Below are positions 24,016 to 38,112 of a DNA stretch of 41,802 bases, one piece after another. The notes below the pieces were generated by a model. It made no database searches. It was not told the DNA's origin and was given only the letters and a program-made list of their open reading frames with translations. Where the stretch lies: NCBI GenBank assembly GCA_024400395.1, contig JAKSMW010000017.1, positions 1-41,802 on the forward strand. The letters are read 5' to 3'. The first letter of the stretch is position 1; every line of letters begins with the position of its first letter. Origin of the DNA: Bacteroidales bacterium. Lineage in GTDB: Bacteria > Bacteroidota > Bacteroidia > Bacteroidales > F082. Position numbers and translations under genes: made by a program.

Positions 24016-24035
24016 TGGTTTAAAAATTTTTGCCA

Positions 24036-27000
24036 ATGAAAAAGATTTATACGCTGATCTTTTGTATGTTTTTCCTGTCGTTACAGTCATTTGCGCAGGA
24101 AATTATTGTCACGGGTGTCGTCACTTCGAGTGAAGATAAGATGGAGATACCCGGCGTTGCGGTGCGTGTTGTGAGCAGCAACACCGGCACGGTGACGGGT
24201 CTTGACGGAGACTATTCCGTCGCGGCGAATCCTAATGACTCCTTGGAGTTTTCGTTTGTCGGAATGAGAAAAGTAACCCTTGCCATCAGCAACAGACATG
24301 TGATCAACGTTGTGATGGAACCTGACGCCCAGGTCTTGAGCGATGTCGTAGTGACGGCTCTCGGCATCAAGCGTCAGAAAAGGGAGTTGGGTTACGCCAC
24401 GGAGGACATCAACGGTGAGCTTTTGGCGCGTTCAGGAAGCGACAACATCATCAGTGCGTTGAGCGGCCGCGCCGCCGGTGTGCAGATCATCAACGCCGAC
24501 GGTGTCGCGGGCGGTTCGTCGCGTATCGTCATCCGCGGTAACAACAGCATCTTCGGTGACAACCAGCCGCTTATCGTCGTTGACGGCGTGCCGATGACCA
24601 ACGAAGGCGGCGTCACGGAATGGAGCGGCGGCCAGGACTGGGGAACAGCCCTGAACAACATCAACCAGGAAGACATCGAAGACATCAACATCCTGAAAGG
24701 ACCTACCGCGGCAGCGCTTTACGGCTCACGTGGCGGCAACGGCGTGATGCTCATCACCACGAAGAAAGGTAAGAAAAAAGATGGCCTCGGCCTCGATTTC
24801 TCCACAACATACAAAATAACAACGCCTTACGGTTTCCGTAACGTACAGAACAAATACGGCTACGGCGGCCCGGTGTCGTTCTCAACGCCGACGCTTTACC
24901 AGAACCCCGACGGACAATACGAGTTCCACGACACCTACAGCTCCGACAACGGACCCGCCGGCGAGGCCACCAACACCACTTTCGGTTACTACGGCGGCGC
25001 AGTGTCGTGGGGTCCCGTGATGGACGGCACAGAGATGACATGGTGGGACGGCTCGCTGAGAAACTACGCCCCGCAGCCCGACAACCTCTCGATGCTTTAC
25101 CATCACTCAAATTCAATGGTCAACTCGCTCTCCTTCCAGAACGCCGGCGACTTCGGCTCCGTCAGGGTGTCGGCCACCAACGAACGCAGCGACGCCATCA
25201 TCGACAACTGCAAACTCAACCAAACAACCGTCAACTTCGGGTCACTCATGAATATCTCAAGCAAAGTAAAAGCTGAAATATCAATGAGTTATGTCGATTA
25301 TTACAGACTCAACTCCCCTGTTCTCGGTGAGTCATACTCCAACTTTAACAAAGGTCTGCTCTACAGCTGGCCGAGAAGCTGGCAAGGCCTTGAGTCGCAG
25401 GAATACGAGCAGCCCGACGGAACACAGACAGTATGGGAGAATTACCCGTATAAATATATGTACCAGACGACATTCTGGGATTTCTACAACCATAACACGG
25501 AACTCGACCGCGACAAATTCTACGGCTCGGCACGTCTCATCATCGACCCGACCGACTGGCTGATGCTTTCCGGCAAGGTCGCCATGGACTACACCGACGA
25601 CAAATACGAGACGAAACACAAGCCAACGCTCAGCGACGGGATGACAAGCGGTTACTACAAGAAAGACGTAGGCACCGACTACACCCTCGACGCCGACTTC
25701 CTCATCACGGCTTATAAGGACAACATCTTCCACTCACAATGGAACATCAGAGGCTCCTTCGGCGGCGAACGCTACTACAGAAAGAAATATTCGATGTGGG
25801 CGGGGACAGGCACCTGGGCATACGCCGACCTTTACACATTCTACAATTACATCAACGGAAGCAACCAGACGGCGTTGTATCCTGGCGAGTCGAGATATGA
25901 GAAACAGGTCAACTCACTCTACGGATTCCTCAACGTCTCATACGCGAAATGGCTGTTCCTCGACATCACGGGAAGAAACGACTGGTCATCGACGCTGCCG
26001 TCCGACAACAACAGTTACTTCTATCCGTCAGCGACATTGAGTTTCGTGGCGACGGAGGCGTTCAAGATCAACTGGGGATGCATCTCATTCATGAAACTCA
26101 GGGGTTCGGCGGCCATGACAGCGAGCGACGACCTCCCATATCAGCTTGATTTCACATACAACACTGGTTCCTTCGGCGGTCAGCTCATGTCGAGTCTGCC
26201 GAGTCAGGTGCCGCCGCTTCAGCTGAAACCGCAGCGTCAGCGTTCATTTGAAATCGGTCTCGAAATGGGATTCTGGGACAAACTCAACCTCGACTTCACA
26301 TATTACGACATTTATTCGTGGGACCAGATTCTCTCGGCACCAGTCGCACCTTCATCAGGATCGAGCAGCGTCAGAATCAACACAGGTGTCGTGACAAACA
26401 AAGGTATCGAATTGATTCTCAACTATAATATTTTCCAGAGACCAAACAGCTACATGCAAGTCGGGCTTAACCTCGCCCGCAACACCAACAGAATCGTGAG
26501 TTTGGGCGGCGCCGACATGTACATCCTTTCGGAGATATGGGGATCCAACGGTCCGGCCATCGCCGTCAAGGAAGGTGATGTCTATGGGACGATATACGGT
26601 TGGGATTACGTCTATGAGACCACAGCCGCCGACGGGACACAGATCGGGCCGTTCTACGATGAAGACGGCAACGCGCTGCCGCTCCTCAACTCGACGGGAA
26701 CGGAATACATGAAGACGACAAACCGCGTGCCGGTGGGTAACAGCGCACCCGTCGTGACAGGCGGCATCAACCTCACATACAACTGGAAAGGCTTGCAGGT
26801 CTATGCCTTGGTCGATGCCAAACTCGGAGGCGACATCTACTGCGGCTCCTACGTCATCGCGATGCAGACCGGCCAGAGCCTCGCAACCATGGCGGAACGT
26901 GAAGGCAACGGCCTCCCGCTTTACGACGCCGACGGCACCTTCCTCGGAAACTACGGCGTCATCCTGCCGGGCGTGGCGGTCAACACCGAGACCGGCGAGG

Positions 27001-27344
27001 CGGAAGTCAACGACCAAGTTGTTCACTACCTCTATAAATATATGCCGAACTTCGGCGGCTGGGGCAACTATCTCACGACACCAGGCATCGTCAAAAACAC
27101 TTGGGTGAAACTCAGGGAACTGACGGTATCTTACACATTGCCAAAGAGATGGATAGAGAAAACCAAGTTCTTCCAAAACGTATCAGTATCAGTAACAGGC
27201 CGCGACCTCTTCTATTTCTACAAGAGCCTGCCTGACAACATCAACCCTGAAGGAACACTCGGAACCGGCAACGCACAAGGCCTCGAATACGGCTCATACC
27301 CGATGACAAGAGCGTTCCTGTTCTCACTTAAATTCGGAATTTGA
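24036..27344 (+). CDS. SusC/RagA-family TonB-linked outer-membrane protein
   Basis: A 1,102-residue TonB-dependent importer for glycans or peptides that works with the SusD-like lid downstream. Signal peptide residues 1-21 (MKKIYTLIFCMFFLSLQSFA). A CarboxypepD-regulatory-like domain spans about 24-95 (VTGVVTSSEDKMEIPGVAVRV), the SusC signature near 100-170 (SDVVVTALG, then GRAAGVQII, IVIRGNNSIFG and QPLIVVDGVPM), followed by plug and a 22-strand barrel to the C-terminal FLFSLKFGI. A TTG two codons upstream opens the frame, but the ATG at 24036 gives the proper signal peptide. The gene is followed by SusD and a secreted PNGase F-type enzyme, so glycopeptide or N-glycan uptake is the likely role. 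Confidence 0.93.
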   Translation: MKKIYTLIFCMFFLSLQSFAQEIIVTGVVTSSEDKMEIPGVAVRVVSSNTGTVTGLDGDYSVAANPNDSLEFSFVGMRKVTLAISNRHVINVVMEPDAQVLSDVVVTALGIKRQKRELGYATEDINGELLARSGSDNIISALSGRAAGVQIINADGVAGGSSRIVIRGNNSIFGDNQPLIVVDGVPMTNEGGVTEWSGGQDWGTALNNINQEDIEDINILKGPTAAALYGSRGGNGVMLITTKKGKKKDGLGLDFSTTYKITTPYGFRNVQNKYGYGGPVSFSTPTLYQNPDGQYEFHDTYSSDNGPAGEATNTTFGYYGGAVSWGPVMDGTEMTWWDGSLRNYAPQPDNLSMLYHHSNSMVNSLSFQNAGDFGSVRVSATNERSDAIIDNCKLNQTTVNFGSLMNISSKVKAEISMSYVDYYRLNSPVLGESYSNFNKGLLYSWPRSWQGLESQEYEQPDGTQTVWENYPYKYMYQTTFWDFYNHNTELDRDKFYGSARLIIDPTDWLMLSGKVAMDYTDDKYETKHKPTLSDGMTSGYYKKDVGTDYTLDADFLITAYKDNIFHSQWNIRGSFGGERYYRKKYSMWAGTGTWAYADLYTFYNYINGSNQTALYPGESRYEKQVNSLYGFLNVSYAKWLFLDITGRNDWSSTLPSDNNSYFYPSATLSFVATEAFKINWGCISFMKLRGSAAMTASDDLPYQLDFTYNTGSFGGQLMSSLPSQVPPLQLKPQRQRSFEIGLEMGFWDKLNLDFTYYDIYSWDQILSAPVAPSSGSSSVRINTGVVTNKGIELILNYNIFQRPNSYMQVGLNLARNTNRIVSLGGADMYILSEIWGSNGPAIAVKEGDVYGTIYGWDYVYETTAADGTQIGPFYDEDGNALPLLNSTGTEYMKTTNRVPVGNSAPVVTGGINLTYNWKGLQVYALVDAKLGGDIYCGSYVIAMQTGQSLATMAEREGNGLPLYDADGTFLGNYGVILPGVAVNTETGEAEVNDQVVHYLYKYMPNFGGWGNYLTTPGIVKNTWVKLRELTVSYTLPKRWIEKTKFFQNVSVSVTGRDLFYFYKSLPDNINPEGTLGTGNAQGLEYGSYPMTRAFLFSLKFGI

Positions 27345-27350
27345 TCACGT

Positions 27351-27390
27351 GTTCAAAGATTTAAAGATTCAAAGATTTAAAGATTTAAGG
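27351..27390. repeat. Short AT-rich direct repeats in susC-susD spacer
   Basis: Overlapping repeats of TTCAAAGATTTAAAGAT fill most of the 56-bp spacer. They may be a translational spacing element or simple slippage product; no function is evident. Confidence 0.45.
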
Positions 27391-27400
27391 ATTTAGAAAT

Positions 27401-29095
27401 ATGAAAAGATACATTTTAATGATAATGATTTCCGGGTTGTTGATGATTTCGTGCAACAAATTCGGCGACATGAACAAAAACCCGCAAAGCCCTACTGGAA
27501 CCGAGATAGGACCGCTTTTCAACGGCGTGGTGGCTTCACTGACTTACAACGGCAACGAGATGTTTTACCTCGACAACGAGATTTTCTATCCTGAAACAGA
27601 ACTCGGAGCCTTGACATCCGATGCGTGGGGCAACTTCCAGATCGGCACACAGGCCGTGTGGGACAATTACTATTACGCCTTGGGCAACATCCGCGACATC
27701 GAACAACGTTTTGAAGAGAGATGCAAGGACGACCCGGAGATATGCGACAAAGTAAAAGCGCAACTTATTGTACTCAAAGCGTTTAAGACTTTCAAGGTGA
27801 CTGACTATTTCGGCGACATCCCTTATTCGGAAGCCGGAAAGATCTGGTACAACACCACCGAGACAAGCAACAAGAAACCGAAGTTCGACAGTCAAGAGTC
27901 GATTTACAAGAGCCTCCTCAACGAACTCGTCTGGGCGCGTGAAATCCTTCTCGGCAACAAAGCCCAGACCGACCTCGGCAACGAATTCTTTACTCTCGGA
28001 GTTTACGATGTGCTTTATGCCAACAATTACGAGAAATGGGCCAAGATAGCCAACTCGTTGATTCTCAAACATGGTCTGAGAATGTACGACAAAGACATAC
28101 AGTTTGCCGACACACTGTTGAAGACGGCTTTCAACAAGCCCGTCATCGATGACTACTGGTGCGGCAGCGGCGGCTTCATGCTCTGGCCGATGACGCTGAC
28201 CAACCCTGTAGGCGACGTGAACTGGAGTTTCCGCGAGCACCGCAACCTCCGCATGGGCGAGACCGTCTTCGCGCAGATGTCAGACTCCGACGACCCGACA
28301 GGCGCCGGCATCTTCGACCTCCGCATGTACATATTCTTCGACACCAACCACAAGACCGACGAGTTCCCGCAAGGAGCCTGGAAAGGTTTCCCGCAGATGA
28401 AAGACGCCTCGACGCCGACAGAAGGCGGCACGCCTTACGAACGCACCCGCGACCAGAACTACGCCTTCAAAGGCCCGTCGTGCCTCTACTCCCCTTTCAA
28501 CTATTACCTCATCAGAGACAACAGCGACCAGGCCGGCTTCATCCCGAGAATACTGATGAGCGCGGCCGAAGTATGTTTCATCAAAGCCGAGATAGCCTTC
28601 AGAGGAATCGTCTCCGTCTCACAAATGGAATCAGAACAATTGATTGTGTCGGGCATCACAAACTCTTATTACATCTGGCTGCAACTGCATTCAAATGCAA
28701 CAGTTCAATATAACCCCGCCTGGAAATACACCTATCCGGCTCTGGCTGACGCACTCCAAGCCGGAGACTTCTATTCAGTCGCCAGCTCGTATGCCTCACA
28801 GATTCTGAACCACATCATTTACATGAATCCGGAATTTGATTACACACAAGAGGCGTATATCAAAGCTATCCATCAGCAGCGCTGGCTCGACCTGTTCCGT
28901 CAGCCGGGTGAGGCCTGGTGCCTCGCACGACGCGGCATGGACACGCCTACAACCACTGACCATCAAAAACTTACGTATTACCGCCTGCCATATCCTCCGA
29001 CAGAAGTCACATACAATTATGACAATTACAACCAACAGGTCGGCAAGATGTCGAACGGCGACACCAAGTACACGAAAGTGTGGTGGATGGAGTAG
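27401..29095 (+). CDS. SusD/RagB-family nutrient-binding lipoprotein
   Basis: A 564-residue surface lipoprotein that forms the lid on the SusC barrel and binds the substrate. Lipobox MISC (Cys18) follows MKRYILMIMISGLLM. The mature start NKFGDMNKNPQSPTG is typical of the SusD-like_2 group. TPR-type helices are seen around residues 75-170 and again near 200-225 (YEKWAKIANSLILKHGLRM), and the C-terminal region has QRWLDLFRQPGEAWCLARR, a SusD-family landmark. It lies 56 bases after susC and 46 bases before the PNGase F-like gene, all on the plus strand. Confidence 0.92.
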   Translation: MKRYILMIMISGLLMISCNKFGDMNKNPQSPTGTEIGPLFNGVVASLTYNGNEMFYLDNEIFYPETELGALTSDAWGNFQIGTQAVWDNYYYALGNIRDIEQRFEERCKDDPEICDKVKAQLIVLKAFKTFKVTDYFGDIPYSEAGKIWYNTTETSNKKPKFDSQESIYKSLLNELVWAREILLGNKAQTDLGNEFFTLGVYDVLYANNYEKWAKIANSLILKHGLRMYDKDIQFADTLLKTAFNKPVIDDYWCGSGGFMLWPMTLTNPVGDVNWSFREHRNLRMGETVFAQMSDSDDPTGAGIFDLRMYIFFDTNHKTDEFPQGAWKGFPQMKDASTPTEGGTPYERTRDQNYAFKGPSCLYSPFNYYLIRDNSDQAGFIPRILMSAAEVCFIKAEIAFRGIVSVSQMESEQLIVSGITNSYYIWLQLHSNATVQYNPAWKYTYPALADALQAGDFYSVASSYASQILNHIIYMNPEFDYTQEAYIKAIHQQRWLDLFRQPGEAWCLARRGMDTPTTTDHQKLTYYRLPYPPTEVTYNYDNYNQQVGKMSNGDTKYTKVWWME

Positions 29096-29141
29096 AGAGT
29101 TAAAAGTTGAAAGTTGAAAGTGAAAAGTAGAAAGTAGAAAG

Positions 29142-31703
29142 ATGAAAAAGACATTATTGACGATGGTCATGATTATGGCGGTCATGACGGGATTCTCCCA
29201 AGTGGAGCATGTGTACGACTTCAATAGCCTTTCCGAAGGCACGCAGAACCTCAACGGACAGGACGGCTGGGTGACGCATTACCAGACCGCCGCACAGTCG
29301 CAGGACTTCAACGTGGCATATACCAGCGACGGACTCATGTCACCAGACGAATCCATCGCCATTTTCTATCCTTACGGCGGCCCGGGCGTGGGAAGGACAG
29401 CGACACGCAAGGCCAGCGGCGACTTCAATTTCAACTTCCAGAGCGGCGGCATCATCGACCTTGAGTTCGACCTCTGCCGCAACTGGTGGGGCGCATTCGT
29501 CGGCGTGGGCTTCGACTCCGACAACGACGGCAACATCCTCGACGGGATGACCGACGGCGACGGCGGCGTCAGCCTCTGCGTGAAAGGCGCCGACAACAAC
29601 GAAAACCACCCGATACTCAGACTCCCGTCGGCGGCGAGCGTCACGTCGGCGTCGTACCAGCAGGAACCCAACTGGGCGAGATACAAGCTCTCGTTCGACT
29701 TCAACGCCTTCGACGAAGCCGGCTCCGTCACCGTCTTCGTGAAAGAATACACCGACGGCGAAGGCTGGGGCGAATGGCAGCAGATCGCCGACATGACAGA
29801 ACTCAACATGGGTCTCACACCAGGCTCCGGCGACAAGAACGACTACAAGGTCTGGGACGGCATCTATTTCCACTCGCAAGGCGCCACGGGCGGCTTCGAC
29901 AACATCCTCGTGCGCCAGATGCCCGACGGAAACGTACAGTACATCAACATGCCCGACATCCCGAAGCAGCTGACTATCAACGGACCGATAACGCTCCAGG
30001 CGACGGCCACATCAGGACTTCCGGTGTCGTTTGAATACGTCTCCGGACCGGCGACGCTCAACGGCAACGTCCTCACACTCACAGGCGAGACAGGCGAAGT
30101 GAAAATCAAGGCGACACAGGGCGGCGACGCCACATGGCTCCCGGCACCTGAAGTCATCAAGACGTTCCTCGTCATCGACCCGATGGACTACACCCCGACT
30201 TACACCATCCGCCGCCCGTTCGACGGCAGCACGGTCTATATGCCGGAACTCAACGCGATGGTCATCTGCGTAAGCGCATACGTCGAACACTCCGACGCCA
30301 TCGAGTTTGAAGAAGTGAAAGCTGTCATCGACGGCAGCGACGTGATCCTCGGCACCATGTATCCTGAAGACCACGAAAACGGCTACTTCTACGGCTATTG
30401 GACACCAGACTCTTTCGGCAGCCACGACATAGACATGAGCATCACCACAAGCGGCGGCAAGGTCACGACAGACCATATAACATTCGAGGTTTCAAACACC
30501 TACGACAACATAAACGTCACCACGATGAACGGCGACCTCGTCGTGACACCGAGCATCGCTTCAAGTATCAAAGACTATGAGATGCCGATGCACGTCGGGG
30601 CGTTCGATGACATCACGGCGAGTTACCAGCACAACTGCGTCGGCTCGTGCGACCCGTACGACCGCGTGGGCGGCGTGAAGGTGCGCAACTACCGCGGCGA
30701 GTGGATGGAGCTGTTCCGTTACATCAGTCCGTTCGGGGTGGAATGCGAAGCCGACCTCGACGTCACCGACTACACCTCGGTGCTTCAGGGCATCGTGGAG
30801 TTCGAGCTATTCTTCGAGACATGGAGCGGCGACGGCTACAACCCGACCCTGACCTTCGCGATGACGAAAGGCACACCTGAATACAAATACATCAACGTCG
30901 AGGAAATATGGTACGGCACGTTCTCGTTCGGCGACTACGCCAACCAGCAGCCAGTTCCGCCAGTAGATTATTTCTTCGACAGCAACGTGGAAAAAGCATC
31001 TGTCAAGGTGACGACGACGGGTCACAACTGGAGCAGCGGCAACAACGGGACGTACAATACCGGCAACGCCGCCGAGTTCCTCGAAGCGACACATCACCTA
31101 TTCGTCAACAATAACAAGGAGTTCGACCAGCACAATTGGGAGAACTGCAACCCGAACCCATTCGGATGCCAGCCGCAAAACGGCACATGGACATACCCGC
31201 GTTCCGGCTGGTGCCCAGGCAGCATCGCCATGGTGTGGGACTTCGACATCACAAACCACATCGGCCAAGGCTCCGTCAACCTGTTCTATCAGTTCGACCC
31301 GACATACATCGACCAGTGCCATCCGAACTACCCCGACTGCGTGAACGGACAGAACAGCTGCCCGCTCTGCGACGCCCCCGACAACCCGATACTGAAACTT
31401 GCCGGAAAAGTCATCACCTACAGCAACAACGTTGAAGTCCTCACCGATGTCAATGAAATCACTGAACCTGAAGCATTTAATGTCGAGATATTCCCTAACC
31501 CAGCACAGAACCAGCTCAACCTCAACACCGACTACGAGCACGGCAACCTCTGCGTGCTGATTCTCAACGCACAAGGTCAGGTGATGGCCAACTTCACATT
31601 CAGCGGAAACAAGACCATCGACGTAAGCAGCTGGACACCAGGCGTTTACTTCGTCCAGACGTTAGGCGGAACGATGAAGACACAGAAAGTCGTCATCAGG
31701 TAG
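29142..31703 (+). CDS. Secreted PNGase F-type peptide:N-glycosidase with T9SS sorting domain
   Basis: Predicted to release N-glycans from glycoproteins by cleaving the GlcNAc-Asn amide. Layout of the 853 residues: signal peptide 1-20; a jelly-roll/lectin-like domain about 21-262; an Ig-like repeat about 265-346; a second Ig-like region about 350-455; PNGase F N- and C-domains about 465-765; a T9SS type A sorting domain about 778-853 (VEIFPNPAQNQLNL to KVVIR). The family's catalytic acids are conserved: Asp507 in CDPYDR (Asp60 of Elizabethkingia PNGase F), Glu559 in FFETW (Glu118) and Glu645 in AAEF (Glu206). The landmarks KGTPEYKY and GWCPG also match. It is the third gene of the SusC/D operon, followed by a terminator. 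Residue equivalences were aligned from memory. Confidence 0.88.
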   Translation: MKKTLLTMVMIMAVMTGFSQVEHVYDFNSLSEGTQNLNGQDGWVTHYQTAAQSQDFNVAYTSDGLMSPDESIAIFYPYGGPGVGRTATRKASGDFNFNFQSGGIIDLEFDLCRNWWGAFVGVGFDSDNDGNILDGMTDGDGGVSLCVKGADNNENHPILRLPSAASVTSASYQQEPNWARYKLSFDFNAFDEAGSVTVFVKEYTDGEGWGEWQQIADMTELNMGLTPGSGDKNDYKVWDGIYFHSQGATGGFDNILVRQMPDGNVQYINMPDIPKQLTINGPITLQATATSGLPVSFEYVSGPATLNGNVLTLTGETGEVKIKATQGGDATWLPAPEVIKTFLVIDPMDYTPTYTIRRPFDGSTVYMPELNAMVICVSAYVEHSDAIEFEEVKAVIDGSDVILGTMYPEDHENGYFYGYWTPDSFGSHDIDMSITTSGGKVTTDHITFEVSNTYDNINVTTMNGDLVVTPSIASSIKDYEMPMHVGAFDDITASYQHNCVGSCDPYDRVGGVKVRNYRGEWMELFRYISPFGVECEADLDVTDYTSVLQGIVEFELFFETWSGDGYNPTLTFAMTKGTPEYKYINVEEIWYGTFSFGDYANQQPVPPVDYFFDSNVEKASVKVTTTGHNWSSGNNGTYNTGNAAEFLEATHHLFVNNNKEFDQHNWENCNPNPFGCQPQNGTWTYPRSGWCPGSIAMVWDFDITNHIGQGSVNLFYQFDPTYIDQCHPNYPDCVNGQNSCPLCDAPDNPILKLAGKVITYSNNVEVLTDVNEITEPEAFNVEIFPNPAQNQLNLNTDYEHGNLCVLILNAQGQVMANFTFSGNKTIDVSSWTPGVYFVQTLGGTMKTQKVVIR

Positions 31704-31731: not shown

Positions 31732-31768
31732 ATACCACGCTGGTTTTCAACGTGGTATTGTTTTCTTA
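31732..31768 (+). terminator. Intrinsic terminator of the SusC/D-PNGase operon
   Basis: An 8-bp stem ATACCACG / CGTGGTAT (31732-31739 and 31751-31758), 11-base loop, followed by TGTTTTCTT. Confidence 0.7.
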
Positions 31769-31796
31769 TATTGAAGCAGTACAGCTTTATTTCTTA

Positions 31797-31876
31797 TGGA
31801 AAAAAGTTGTAAAAAAACAATCACAACAGTGGAAAAAAGTTGTATTTTTGCAGCAATTTCATTGGAAAAAAGTTGA
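31797..31876 (+). promoter_or_regulatory. Three 14-mers at exact 33-bp spacing over a promoter
   Basis: TGGAAAAAAGTTGT occurs at 31797-31810 and 31830-31843, and TGGAAAAAAGTTGA at 31863-31876, each start 33 bases from the last. A -7 box TATTTTTG (31843-31850) directly follows the second copy. The third copy lies in the leader, three bases before the ATPase ATG at 31880. The even spacing, near three helical turns, and promoter overlap suggest an operator for same-face binding. Confidence 0.6.
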
Positions 31877-31879
31877 AAT

Positions 31880-33211
31880 ATGTTAAGGAGAAAAATAATT
31901 GAATCACTTGACAGATGGGCGGTTAGAGACCATAAAAAGGCTTTGTTTGTCGAAGGTGCGAGGCAGGTCGGGAAAACGACATCCATCCGGGAGTTTTCAA
32001 AATCAAGATTCAAACATTATATTGAGATCAATTTCATAAAAAAACCTTTGGCAAAAAGTGCCTTTGATGGTGATTTAGACACTCAAACCATAGTGATGAA
32101 CCTTTCCATGATGGGTTTTGGAACATTCGTCCCGCATGAGACTGTGATATTTCTCGATGAAATACAAGAATGTCCACAGGCAAGGACAGCAGTAAAATTC
32201 CTTGTCGAAGACGGGGCGTATGCAATTGTGGAGTCAGGGTCGCTGCTCGGTATTAATTACAAAGGTGAAACCCATCCTGACGGAGACACCATTGATGAAA
32301 TAGCTTCAATTCCTGTGGGATATGAAGAGCATCTTGAAATGTATCCTCTTGATTTTGAGGAGTTTCTATGGGCTTGTGGAATAAACAATGACGTGATAAA
32401 AATATTGAAGGAGTCGTTTGACAGCATGAAACCTGTTGCTGATTTTGTACATAACAGGATTATGGAACTATATCGGAAATACCTTGTCGTCGGAGGTTTG
32501 CCCGAAGTCGTTGATAATTTTGTCAAAAATGAAGATTTCTCACACACTGTTTCAACACAAATTGACCTGATAAAAGGCTACCGTCATGACATTTCAAAAT
32601 ATGCAGGAAAAGACAAGGATATTGTAAAAAGAATATTTGATGCCATTCCTTCGCAACTTGCCAAGCAAGACAAGCGTTTCATTATCGCAAATCTTGAGGC
32701 GAATGCATCACGACGCAAATTCGCCGATCCGACCCAATGGCTGATAGATGCGGGGATGGCTTATTATGCCACTAATGTGAACGCACTCACACTTCCTTTT
32801 TCAAACTATGAAAACCGTAAATTGTATAAACTTTATATGCTTGACACAGGATTGGTCTGCAACATGAGTCTGAATGGACGGCAGTTTGAGGTCATGAATG
32901 GTGAAATCGGCATAAACGAAGGGGCTTTGACGGAGAATTTTGTAGCTGCCGAACTTGCAAAGAAAGGTGTTTCGCTTCATTATCACGACAAGAAAAGCAA
33001 GCATGAACTCGATTTTGTCGTAGCCACACCAAAAGGGATAAAAATCATTGAAGTAAAATCAGGACGTGATTTCAAGCGTCATGCGTCGTTGAGCTATACA
33101 ATGTCAAATGAAGGCGAAAACATCAGTGAAGCCGTTGTTCTATGCAATTCAAACGTCGAGTTTGAGAATGGTATTAAATATCTGCCGTTGTACATGACGA
33201 TGTTCCTATAG
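31880..33211 (+). CDS. AAA_14 / DUF4143 ATPase with PD-(D/E)XK-like C-terminus
   Basis: A 443-residue P-loop ATPase of the AAA_14-DUF4143 group, abundant in gut Bacteroidota. Walker A GARQVGKTT at residues 26-34, Walker B VIFLDEIQ at 89-96 and sensor-like IVESGSLLGI follow in order. The C-terminal DUF4143 region ends with Asp378 in HELDFVV and Glu391-Val-Lys393 in IIEVKSG, a PD-(D/E)XK nuclease pattern. No biochemical role is established; these proteins are sometimes linked with defence or DNA handling. It starts 3 bases after the third promoter repeat and is convergent with the lipocalin gene across a hairpin terminator. Confidence 0.9.
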   Translation: MLRRKIIESLDRWAVRDHKKALFVEGARQVGKTTSIREFSKSRFKHYIEINFIKKPLAKSAFDGDLDTQTIVMNLSMMGFGTFVPHETVIFLDEIQECPQARTAVKFLVEDGAYAIVESGSLLGINYKGETHPDGDTIDEIASIPVGYEEHLEMYPLDFEEFLWACGINNDVIKILKESFDSMKPVADFVHNRIMELYRKYLVVGGLPEVVDNFVKNEDFSHTVSTQIDLIKGYRHDISKYAGKDKDIVKRIFDAIPSQLAKQDKRFIIANLEANASRRKFADPTQWLIDAGMAYYATNVNALTLPFSNYENRKLYKLYMLDTGLVCNMSLNGRQFEVMNGEIGINEGALTENFVAAELAKKGVSLHYHDKKSKHELDFVVATPKGIKIIEVKSGRDFKRHASLSYTMSNEGENISEAVVLCNSNVEFENGIKYLPLYMTMFL

Positions 33212-36945: not shown

Positions 36946-38112
36946 TCATATAACGGAACTGAGATTTTTGTAGTTGACGACTTTGATGTCGCCGGCGGTG
37001 TTTTCAAAGTCTCCGGCATAGACGATGATTTTTTTTGCCACCGGTGTTTTCACATAATCCTGTATCTTCTTGAGCGATTTCTCGAATTCAGCAGTGTATG
37101 TTGACGACGACTTGACTTCAATGGCTGTTATTTCGCCTTCCTGTTTTAGAAGGATGTCAACTTCGTTCTGGTTTGAGTCGCGGTAGAAGAAGACGCCGTT
37201 TTCCAGGCCTTGGTTGAAGCGGTGTTTCAAAATCTCGAGCACGATGAAATTCTCAAATATGCAGCCTCTCATCTTGTCGCGTGAGAGTTGCTTCGGGCTT
37301 TCGATGTCGAGAAGGTAGCATGCCAGTCCGGGGTCGTTGAAATACAGTTTCTGTGATTTCACGACGCGTTTTGTGACATTTTCGAAATACGGCGGGAGCA
37401 GCGTGATGAGATACGATGCCTGCAAGACCGAGAGCCAGCGTGTGACTGTCTTCGAGTCAACGCCTATCTCGTTGGCCACTTCCGATGCGTTGAACAACGA
37501 GCCCACCCTTGCGGCGCACAGCTTCATAAATCTCATAAACTGAAGCTGGTCCTGGATTTTCAACAGGTCGCGGACATCTTTCTCCAAATATGTCTTAACG
37601 TATGAAGGGTAGAACAGCCTCGCTGTGTTTTTCTGTGCGCACACCGCCGGATATAATCCGTTGAACAGCAACTCATCAAGCGGCTTGCCCTGCTGTTCAG
37701 CTCTTGTTTCATCGTATGTCATCGGCATCAGCTCGAACACCCCGGCCCGGCCAGGCAACGACTCCGAAAGGCCTCTCAAAAGCTCGAGATTTGAACTTCC
37801 CGTGATGCAGAATCTCCTGTCGGGATGTTCATCCACGATACCTTGCATGTAATCTAGCAGTGCCGGAACTTTCTGAATCTCATCAATGAACATCATCTTG
37901 CCCTTGTCATTGTTAAGAAACGCTATCGGGTCGTTTTGGGCAAACTCTCTGACATTCAAATCTTTCATACTGTATGCGACAGCGTCTGGGAAAAGATGTT
38001 TGAGCAATGTGCTTTTGCCCGACTGCCTTGGTCCGGTTACTGAAATCACCGGGAAATATTGTGACGCTTCGGTCACGACACTTTCAATTTTCCTGTTGAT
38101 ATATGAAATCAT
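36946..38112 (-). CDS. AAA_14 / DUF4143 ATPase, second copy type
   Basis: A 388-residue P-loop ATPase of a different subgroup from the gene at 31880. Walker A is GPRQSGKST at residues 27-35, Walker B MMFIDEIQ at 73-80 and sensor ITGSSNLELL. A DUF4143 region holds a helix-turn-helix-like stretch (NASEVANEIGVDSKTVTRWLSVLQ) and the end has Asp319 in NEVDILL and Glu332-Val-Lys334 in IEVKSS. The promoter lies inside a 16-bp inverted repeat. The gene plus promoter is bracketed by direct repeats of a foreign protein tail (36851-36945 and 38195-38260), as if inserted as a cassette. Confidence 0.9.
   Translation of the reverse strand: MISYINRKIESVVTEASQYFPVISVTGPRQSGKSTLLKHLFPDAVAYSMKDLNVREFAQNDPIAFLNNDKGKMMFIDEIQKVPALLDYMQGIVDEHPDRRFCITGSSNLELLRGLSESLPGRAGVFELMPMTYDETRAEQQGKPLDELLFNGLYPAVCAQKNTARLFYPSYVKTYLEKDVRDLLKIQDQLQFMRFMKLCAARVGSLFNASEVANEIGVDSKTVTRWLSVLQASYLITLLPPYFENVTKRVVKSQKLYFNDPGLACYLLDIESPKQLSRDKMRGCIFENFIVLEILKHRFNQGLENGVFFYRDSNQNEVDILLKQEGEITAIEVKSSSTYTAEFEKSLKKIQDYVKTPVAKKIIVYAGDFENTAGDIKVVNYKNLSSVI

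Follow-up and report, generated by a model that had tools for sequence, protein, structure and literature searches.

How might a bacterium make use of a SusC/SusD importer that has no glycoside hydrolase linked to it, when the gene next in line encodes a relative of the deglycosylating enzyme PNGase F? The question is raised by three plus-strand genes arranged head to tail, coding for SusC, SusD and a protein of 853 residues and separated by intergenic gaps of 56 and 46 bp, in a 41,802-nt stretch of the genome of a gut Bacteroidales bacterium (contig JAKSMW010000017.1). This whole stretch is hereafter the window, to which all positions refer, while residue numbers are those of the 853-residue protein. 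Our analyses lead us to consider, as the best reading and with moderate confidence, that the three genes constitute one surface nutrient unit, in which deglycosylation at the cell surface is coupled to uptake through the SusC/SusD pair. The cassette itself is a real, recurring unit in Bacteroidales.

The third gene may encode an enzyme that cuts sugar chains off glycoproteins, and its kinship with PNGase F, put forward in the original prediction, was upheld at several levels. The PF09113 profile (N-glycanase_C) scored 44.7 bits against a cut-off of 25 and was found at E 0.01 or better in 21/21 aligned family members, D507 and E645 aligned with the catalytic Asp60 and Glu206, and the predicted fold of the PNGase F-like domain, a double jelly roll, superposed overall on that of PNGase F; the N-terminal jelly roll of this domain (the PF09112 region) could likewise be assigned to the family. 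Like the type I enzyme from Elizabethkingia meningoseptica (1pnf, 3pms), the protein displays a catalytic domain built of two jelly rolls, counterparts of D60, E118 and E206, the RAGW motif in the form RSGW, and cysteines opposite four of those of PNGase F, where they form disulphides. Unlike that enzyme, it harbours further conserved cysteines, adjoins a SusC/SusD pair, and carries a type IX secretion system (T9SS) tail and about 450 extra N-terminal residues, in which the proposed lectin-like jelly roll, of concanavalin-like fold, and both immunoglobulin (Ig)-like regions were recovered. D125, D129 and G130, located in a DxDxDG-like loop of the lectin-like domain, are invariant; this domain gave no sequence match in the PDB at E 10 and none to a Pfam lectin family, and Laminin_G_3 is carried by eight of the 21 aligned family members. 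The T9SS tail (TIGR04183, 49.7 bits, cut-off 23) is one of 72 such matches in the genome, from which we infer that the T9SS machinery is present, and the 853-residue protein is probably anchored at the surface. A conserved cysteine-rich stretch (residues 716-743, with C726, C733, C740 and C743) follows the RSGWCPG motif in aligned family members and lies past most of the part aligned with PNGase F.

The claim that three catalytic acids are kept held for the window protein, in which all of them align, but not for its family. D507, E645, H651, R687 and W690 are invariant in 35/35 core members of the order, drawn from 17 families (L030-L033 excluded from this count), whereas E559 is kept as E in only nine of them. 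On a tree of 39 rows (38 members plus PNGase F, with L033 and a PNGF-II-type protein excluded), the E/not-E state at the E118 position requires six changes, and given this shifting state, as judged from the alignments, the family is marked by just two of the acids, D507 and E645. Both are also invariant among close relatives, where 56 of 71 rows (70 readable loci and the window) have E at the E559 position, 14 have Q and one has V. Seven of the 77 loci (L103, L105, L106, L108, L109, L110 and L116) were excluded from these residue counts, their printed match range being unreadable through the positions; each gave one long match further in by a later tblastn. In type I enzymes, E118 is reported to block core alpha-1,3-fucose; type II enzymes have Gly at this position, and a different Glu, numbered E419 in the figure legend but Glu418 in the main text, substitutes for E118 (PMC9522356). 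In a profile alignment with the Bacteroides massiliensis enzyme, D598 falls one column off this type II Glu, which was located by counting, and may take over its role. In zebrafish Ngly2, Ala aligns with E118 of PNGase F, and mutation of the D60 or the E206 equivalent is reported to abolish activity completely (PMC12753239).

The cassette extends well beyond the window. At 90-94% identity there are four loci, in metagenome-assembled genomes whose titles read Horse_feces (two), Candidatus Limimorpha caballi and isolate S33M_St_15. Records titled as ruminant or herbivore gut account for many of the less similar relatives; these titles give no support to mucin or milk glycoproteins, which had been suggested as substrates. 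Order-wide, matches to the domain at E 0.001 were obtained in 75 of the 295 genomes sampled, a figure that includes other PNGase F-like types. Among the neighbourhoods fetched from the better places, 19/20 held the protein type, with SusC and SusD adjoining in 13 of the 19. The 77 named-genome loci, selected as the best among 373 confirmed stretches, include 28 with SusC and SusD upstream on the same strand, and copies per genome range from one to five by domain matches, with tandem arrays of as many as four. The scan of 28 window proteins (Pfam/NCBIfam) revealed neither a glycoside hydrolase nor a regulator family, in agreement with the original prediction; since the same 28 proteins hold neither a linked glycoside hydrolase nor a polysaccharide lyase, the locus was not filed as a canonical polysaccharide utilization locus. 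In two order-level relatives (L045 3376-4431 and L052 16313-17419), a gene resembling, by eye and from its first residues, a LacI-type regulator adjoins the SusC/SusD-PNGase cassette.

Within its own genome (2.12 Mb, 83% complete), the window carries the one SusC over the TIGR04056 cut-off as well as the sole PF12771 SusD match found. A 578-residue PNGF-II-type PNGase (E 1.2e-133 to PNGF-II) is encoded elsewhere in the same genome (G000 contig 26, L001 1486-3222), with no T9SS-tail match listed on its contig; in the 20 kb retrieved, SusC and SusD gave no match. Of 40 genus genomes, 28 carry a single SusC (E 1e-60) and 12 carry none, and strong matches to the 853-residue protein were found in all 28 SusC-bearing genomes and in G308; weak matches near E 1e-7, mainly over the T9SS tail, were not scored as a PNGase-like gene. 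The link with SusC/SusD is thus stronger than the original prediction could know. In 24 of the 28, the PNGase-like gene is found 3' of SusC in the same orientation, 23 times at 1.7-2.0 kb, a gap that holds SusD in the genomes inspected, and once (G301) at 5.1 kb; in G297 and G304 the contig stops within or directly after SusD. A family-wide sample of 149 genomes held 53 genus members with SusC (52 with one, G388 with two), and 53/53 have the 853-residue type of protein; G308 alone has it among the 20 listed SusC-less members of the genus, four unmatched genomes not being listed. Sister genera mostly have from two to at least five SusC. In many genomes of the genus, the unit appears to hold the only SusC/SusD pair.

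If the proposed unit operates as its parts suggest, T9SS would move the 853-residue protein across the outer membrane and anchor it on the cell surface, where the lectin-like domain would hold an N-glycoprotein. D507 and E645 would hydrolyse the amide bond between N-acetylglucosamine and asparagine (GlcNAc-Asn), E559, or perhaps D598 in relatives, would help to place the core, and the adjoining SusD lid and SusC barrel would import the product, which might be the glycan, a glycopeptide or the freed peptide. The hypothesis of a deglycosylation step is well grounded, the release of the glycan and its import being putative; what had originally been observed is confirmed, and its interpretation is partly supported. 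Possible substrates in the herbivore gut range over glycoproteins of plants, protists, feed and host.

A characterized system of similar plan is the Gpd complex of Capnocytophaga canimorsus, which is described as joining surface N-glycoprotein deglycosylation to a presumed TonB-dependent importer (PMC3128124). It relies, however, on lipoproteins and the endo-beta-N-acetylglucosaminidase GpdG instead of a T9SS PNGase, so that the window unit differs both in its enzyme and in its probable anchoring. PNGase F-II and the Bacteroides group 2 PNGases (4r4z, 7zgn) differ from the window protein in the N-terminal bowl-like domain reported for most of group 2 and in the Gly at the E118 position, and the account of them in PMC9522356 makes no mention of a T9SS tail in the parts consulted. 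The same source describes the two Bacteroides PNGases studied as predicted to be periplasmic and the group 2 genes as standalone, next to GH92 or a susC/D pair, or part of larger loci, with B. sartorii providing a precedent for SusC/D adjoining a PNGase. Unlike the window protein, the acid PNGase Ngly2 of zebrafish (9lwg) belongs to an animal, is lysosomal and carries thioredoxin-like and PA domains.

Several observations weigh against a unit dedicated to surface deglycosylation and uptake. PF09112, the other profile named in the original prediction, scored under its cut-off, and the predicted model has a local confidence (pLDDT) below 50 at residues 629-637 and 639-644, just before E645. No upstream SusC plus SusD is seen at 49 of the 77 named loci, where some contigs end too soon and some loci are extra copies in genomes with the cassette elsewhere; the second copy of the same type in the window's own genome (L034) has no SusC/SusD alongside, G308 has its PNGase-like gene without a detected SusC (one of the 12 SusC-less genus genomes), and in G296 and G306 something else follows SusD and the PNGase-like gene does not adjoin SusC. 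The co-occurrence counts ignore shared ancestry and may rest on few gains or losses, and many of the genomes are incomplete; we discarded the claim of a statistically independent co-occurrence, as the Fisher value disregards ancestry. GH92 is found in 39/40 genus genomes whether or not the cassette is present, and GH130 in 0/40 at E 1e-10, while four control genomes were positive; therefore neither of the two glycan-degrading families tried tracks the cassette. A cassette-linked glycan pathway was not found in these genomes with GH92 and GH130.

A last point against it, that the nearest solved relative of the window SusC is the peptide-tied BT2264 (3.5e-77, far ahead of the next at 1.6e-39), would be expected if N-glycans were stripped in order to open glycoproteins or glycopeptides to proteases, with SusC/SusD importing peptides and the glycan wasted or shared. 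A Bt2263/64-peptide complex, in which BT2264 has bound peptide, is cited in PMC7782687, and such protein feeding would also fit the lack of a glycoside hydrolase family among the 28 window proteins scanned and the GH92 and GH130 distributions. Nevertheless, a SusC match this distant does not fix the ligand, the nearest solved relatives of SusD include chitin- and glucan-binding proteins as well as several others whose ligand is not stated, BT2263 is only a weak match (2.9e-5), and the three-gene unit is without a peptidase too; we consider protein feeding rather unlikely, though the likeliest of the rival readings. The large non-catalytic part, the loss of the E118 position in most relatives and the several copies per genome would suit a protein that is mainly a surface glycoprotein binder, its PNGase domain weak or inactive, serving SusC/SusD as a surface glycan-binding protein. 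The five invariant residues are hard to explain without catalysis, and Ngly2 is reported to be active despite Ala at the aligned E118 position, which makes such a binder improbable. Least probable of all would be a substrate with another GlcNAc-Asn or glycosylamine bond, for example on the surface glycoproteins of protists, archaea or bacteria in the gut of herbivores: the six changes at the E118 position and the tandem copies suggest varied substrates and many relatives are titled as herbivore gut, but nothing positive points to such a bond and the conserved residues are those in common with PNGase F.

The coordinates of the cassette, of the domains and residues of the 853-residue protein and of the palindrome behind it are collected in Table 1.

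Table 1. Features of the SusC/SusD-PNGase cassette and of its encoded PNGase F-family protein in the window.
Feature	Position	Strand	Basis
SusC/RagA-type TonB-linked outer-membrane transporter, 1104 aa from TTG (ATG at 24036)	24030..27344	+	TIGR04056
SusD-like lipoprotein, 564 aa, lipobox-like LMISC at start	27401..29095	+	PF12771
T9SS-tailed PNGase F-family protein, 853 aa	29142..31703	+	PF09113, TIGR04183
Signal-peptide-like start, residues 1-20, without lipobox cysteine	29142..29201	+	judged from sequence
Concanavalin-like jelly roll, residues 19-264; L-type lectin fold	29196..29933	+	fold comparison
First Ig-like domain, about residues 263-346	29928..30179	+	
Second Ig-like domain, about residues 349-452	30186..30497	+	
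Double jelly-roll PNGase F-like domain, residues 451-774	30492..31463	+	alignment and fold superposition
D507, opposite PNGase F D60	30660..30662	+	
E559, opposite PNGase F E118; varies in family	30816..30818	+	
D598; D in 31/35 core members	30933..30935	+	
E645, opposite PNGase F E206	31074..31076	+	
R687 to W690 (RSGW; PNGase F RAGW); R and W invariant	31200..31211	+	
T9SS sorting domain, residues 783-853, plus stop codon	31488..31703	+	TIGR04183
Palindrome with T-rich flanks behind third gene	31732..31758	.	terminator-like per scan on the minus strand only; no terminator call from the scan on the plus strand, which was read by eye

The next gene after the cassette, starting at 31880, encodes an AAA_14/DUF4143 ATPase, and three copies of TGGAAAAAAGTTG at 33 bp spacing (31796-31875) lie immediately 5' of it, a stretch for which Tandem Repeats Finder made no call. 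Two such ATPases (31880-33211 and 36946-38112) bracket an ArsF-family gene, a DsbD_2 gene and an ArsP-type permease. Six matches to TTGGAAAAAAGTTG occur in the window at no more than two mismatches, a number that 0/100 shuffles attained. A megablast search of the three cassette genes against a plasmid collection, made with mobility in mind, gave no match.

Neither a report of this cassette nor a precedent for the near-exclusive pairing of a PNGase gene with the single SusC/SusD of a genome was found among the open-licence papers that our searches listed, as read from titles and the first lines of abstracts. We advance only tentatively, as a doubtful extension of the preferred reading, that in many genomes of this Limimorpha-like genus SusC/SusD has been reduced to one pair committed to the surface catching, cleaving and importing of N-glycoproteins, and that the type I/type II switch has been replaced by a fast-changing E118 position with D598 in place of E419, the copies covering differently core-fucosylated glycans. 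A PNGase with a lectin-like fusion and a T9SS tail, tied to the single SusC/SusD detected in a genome, would represent a distinct arrangement for using N-glycoproteins, and with one importer and one enzyme family it would offer a simple system in which to test what a SusC/SusD pair without linked glycoside hydrolases imports. The family might also prove a source of PNGases with useful specificity, given how much it varies at the position that governs whether known PNGases accept core fucose.
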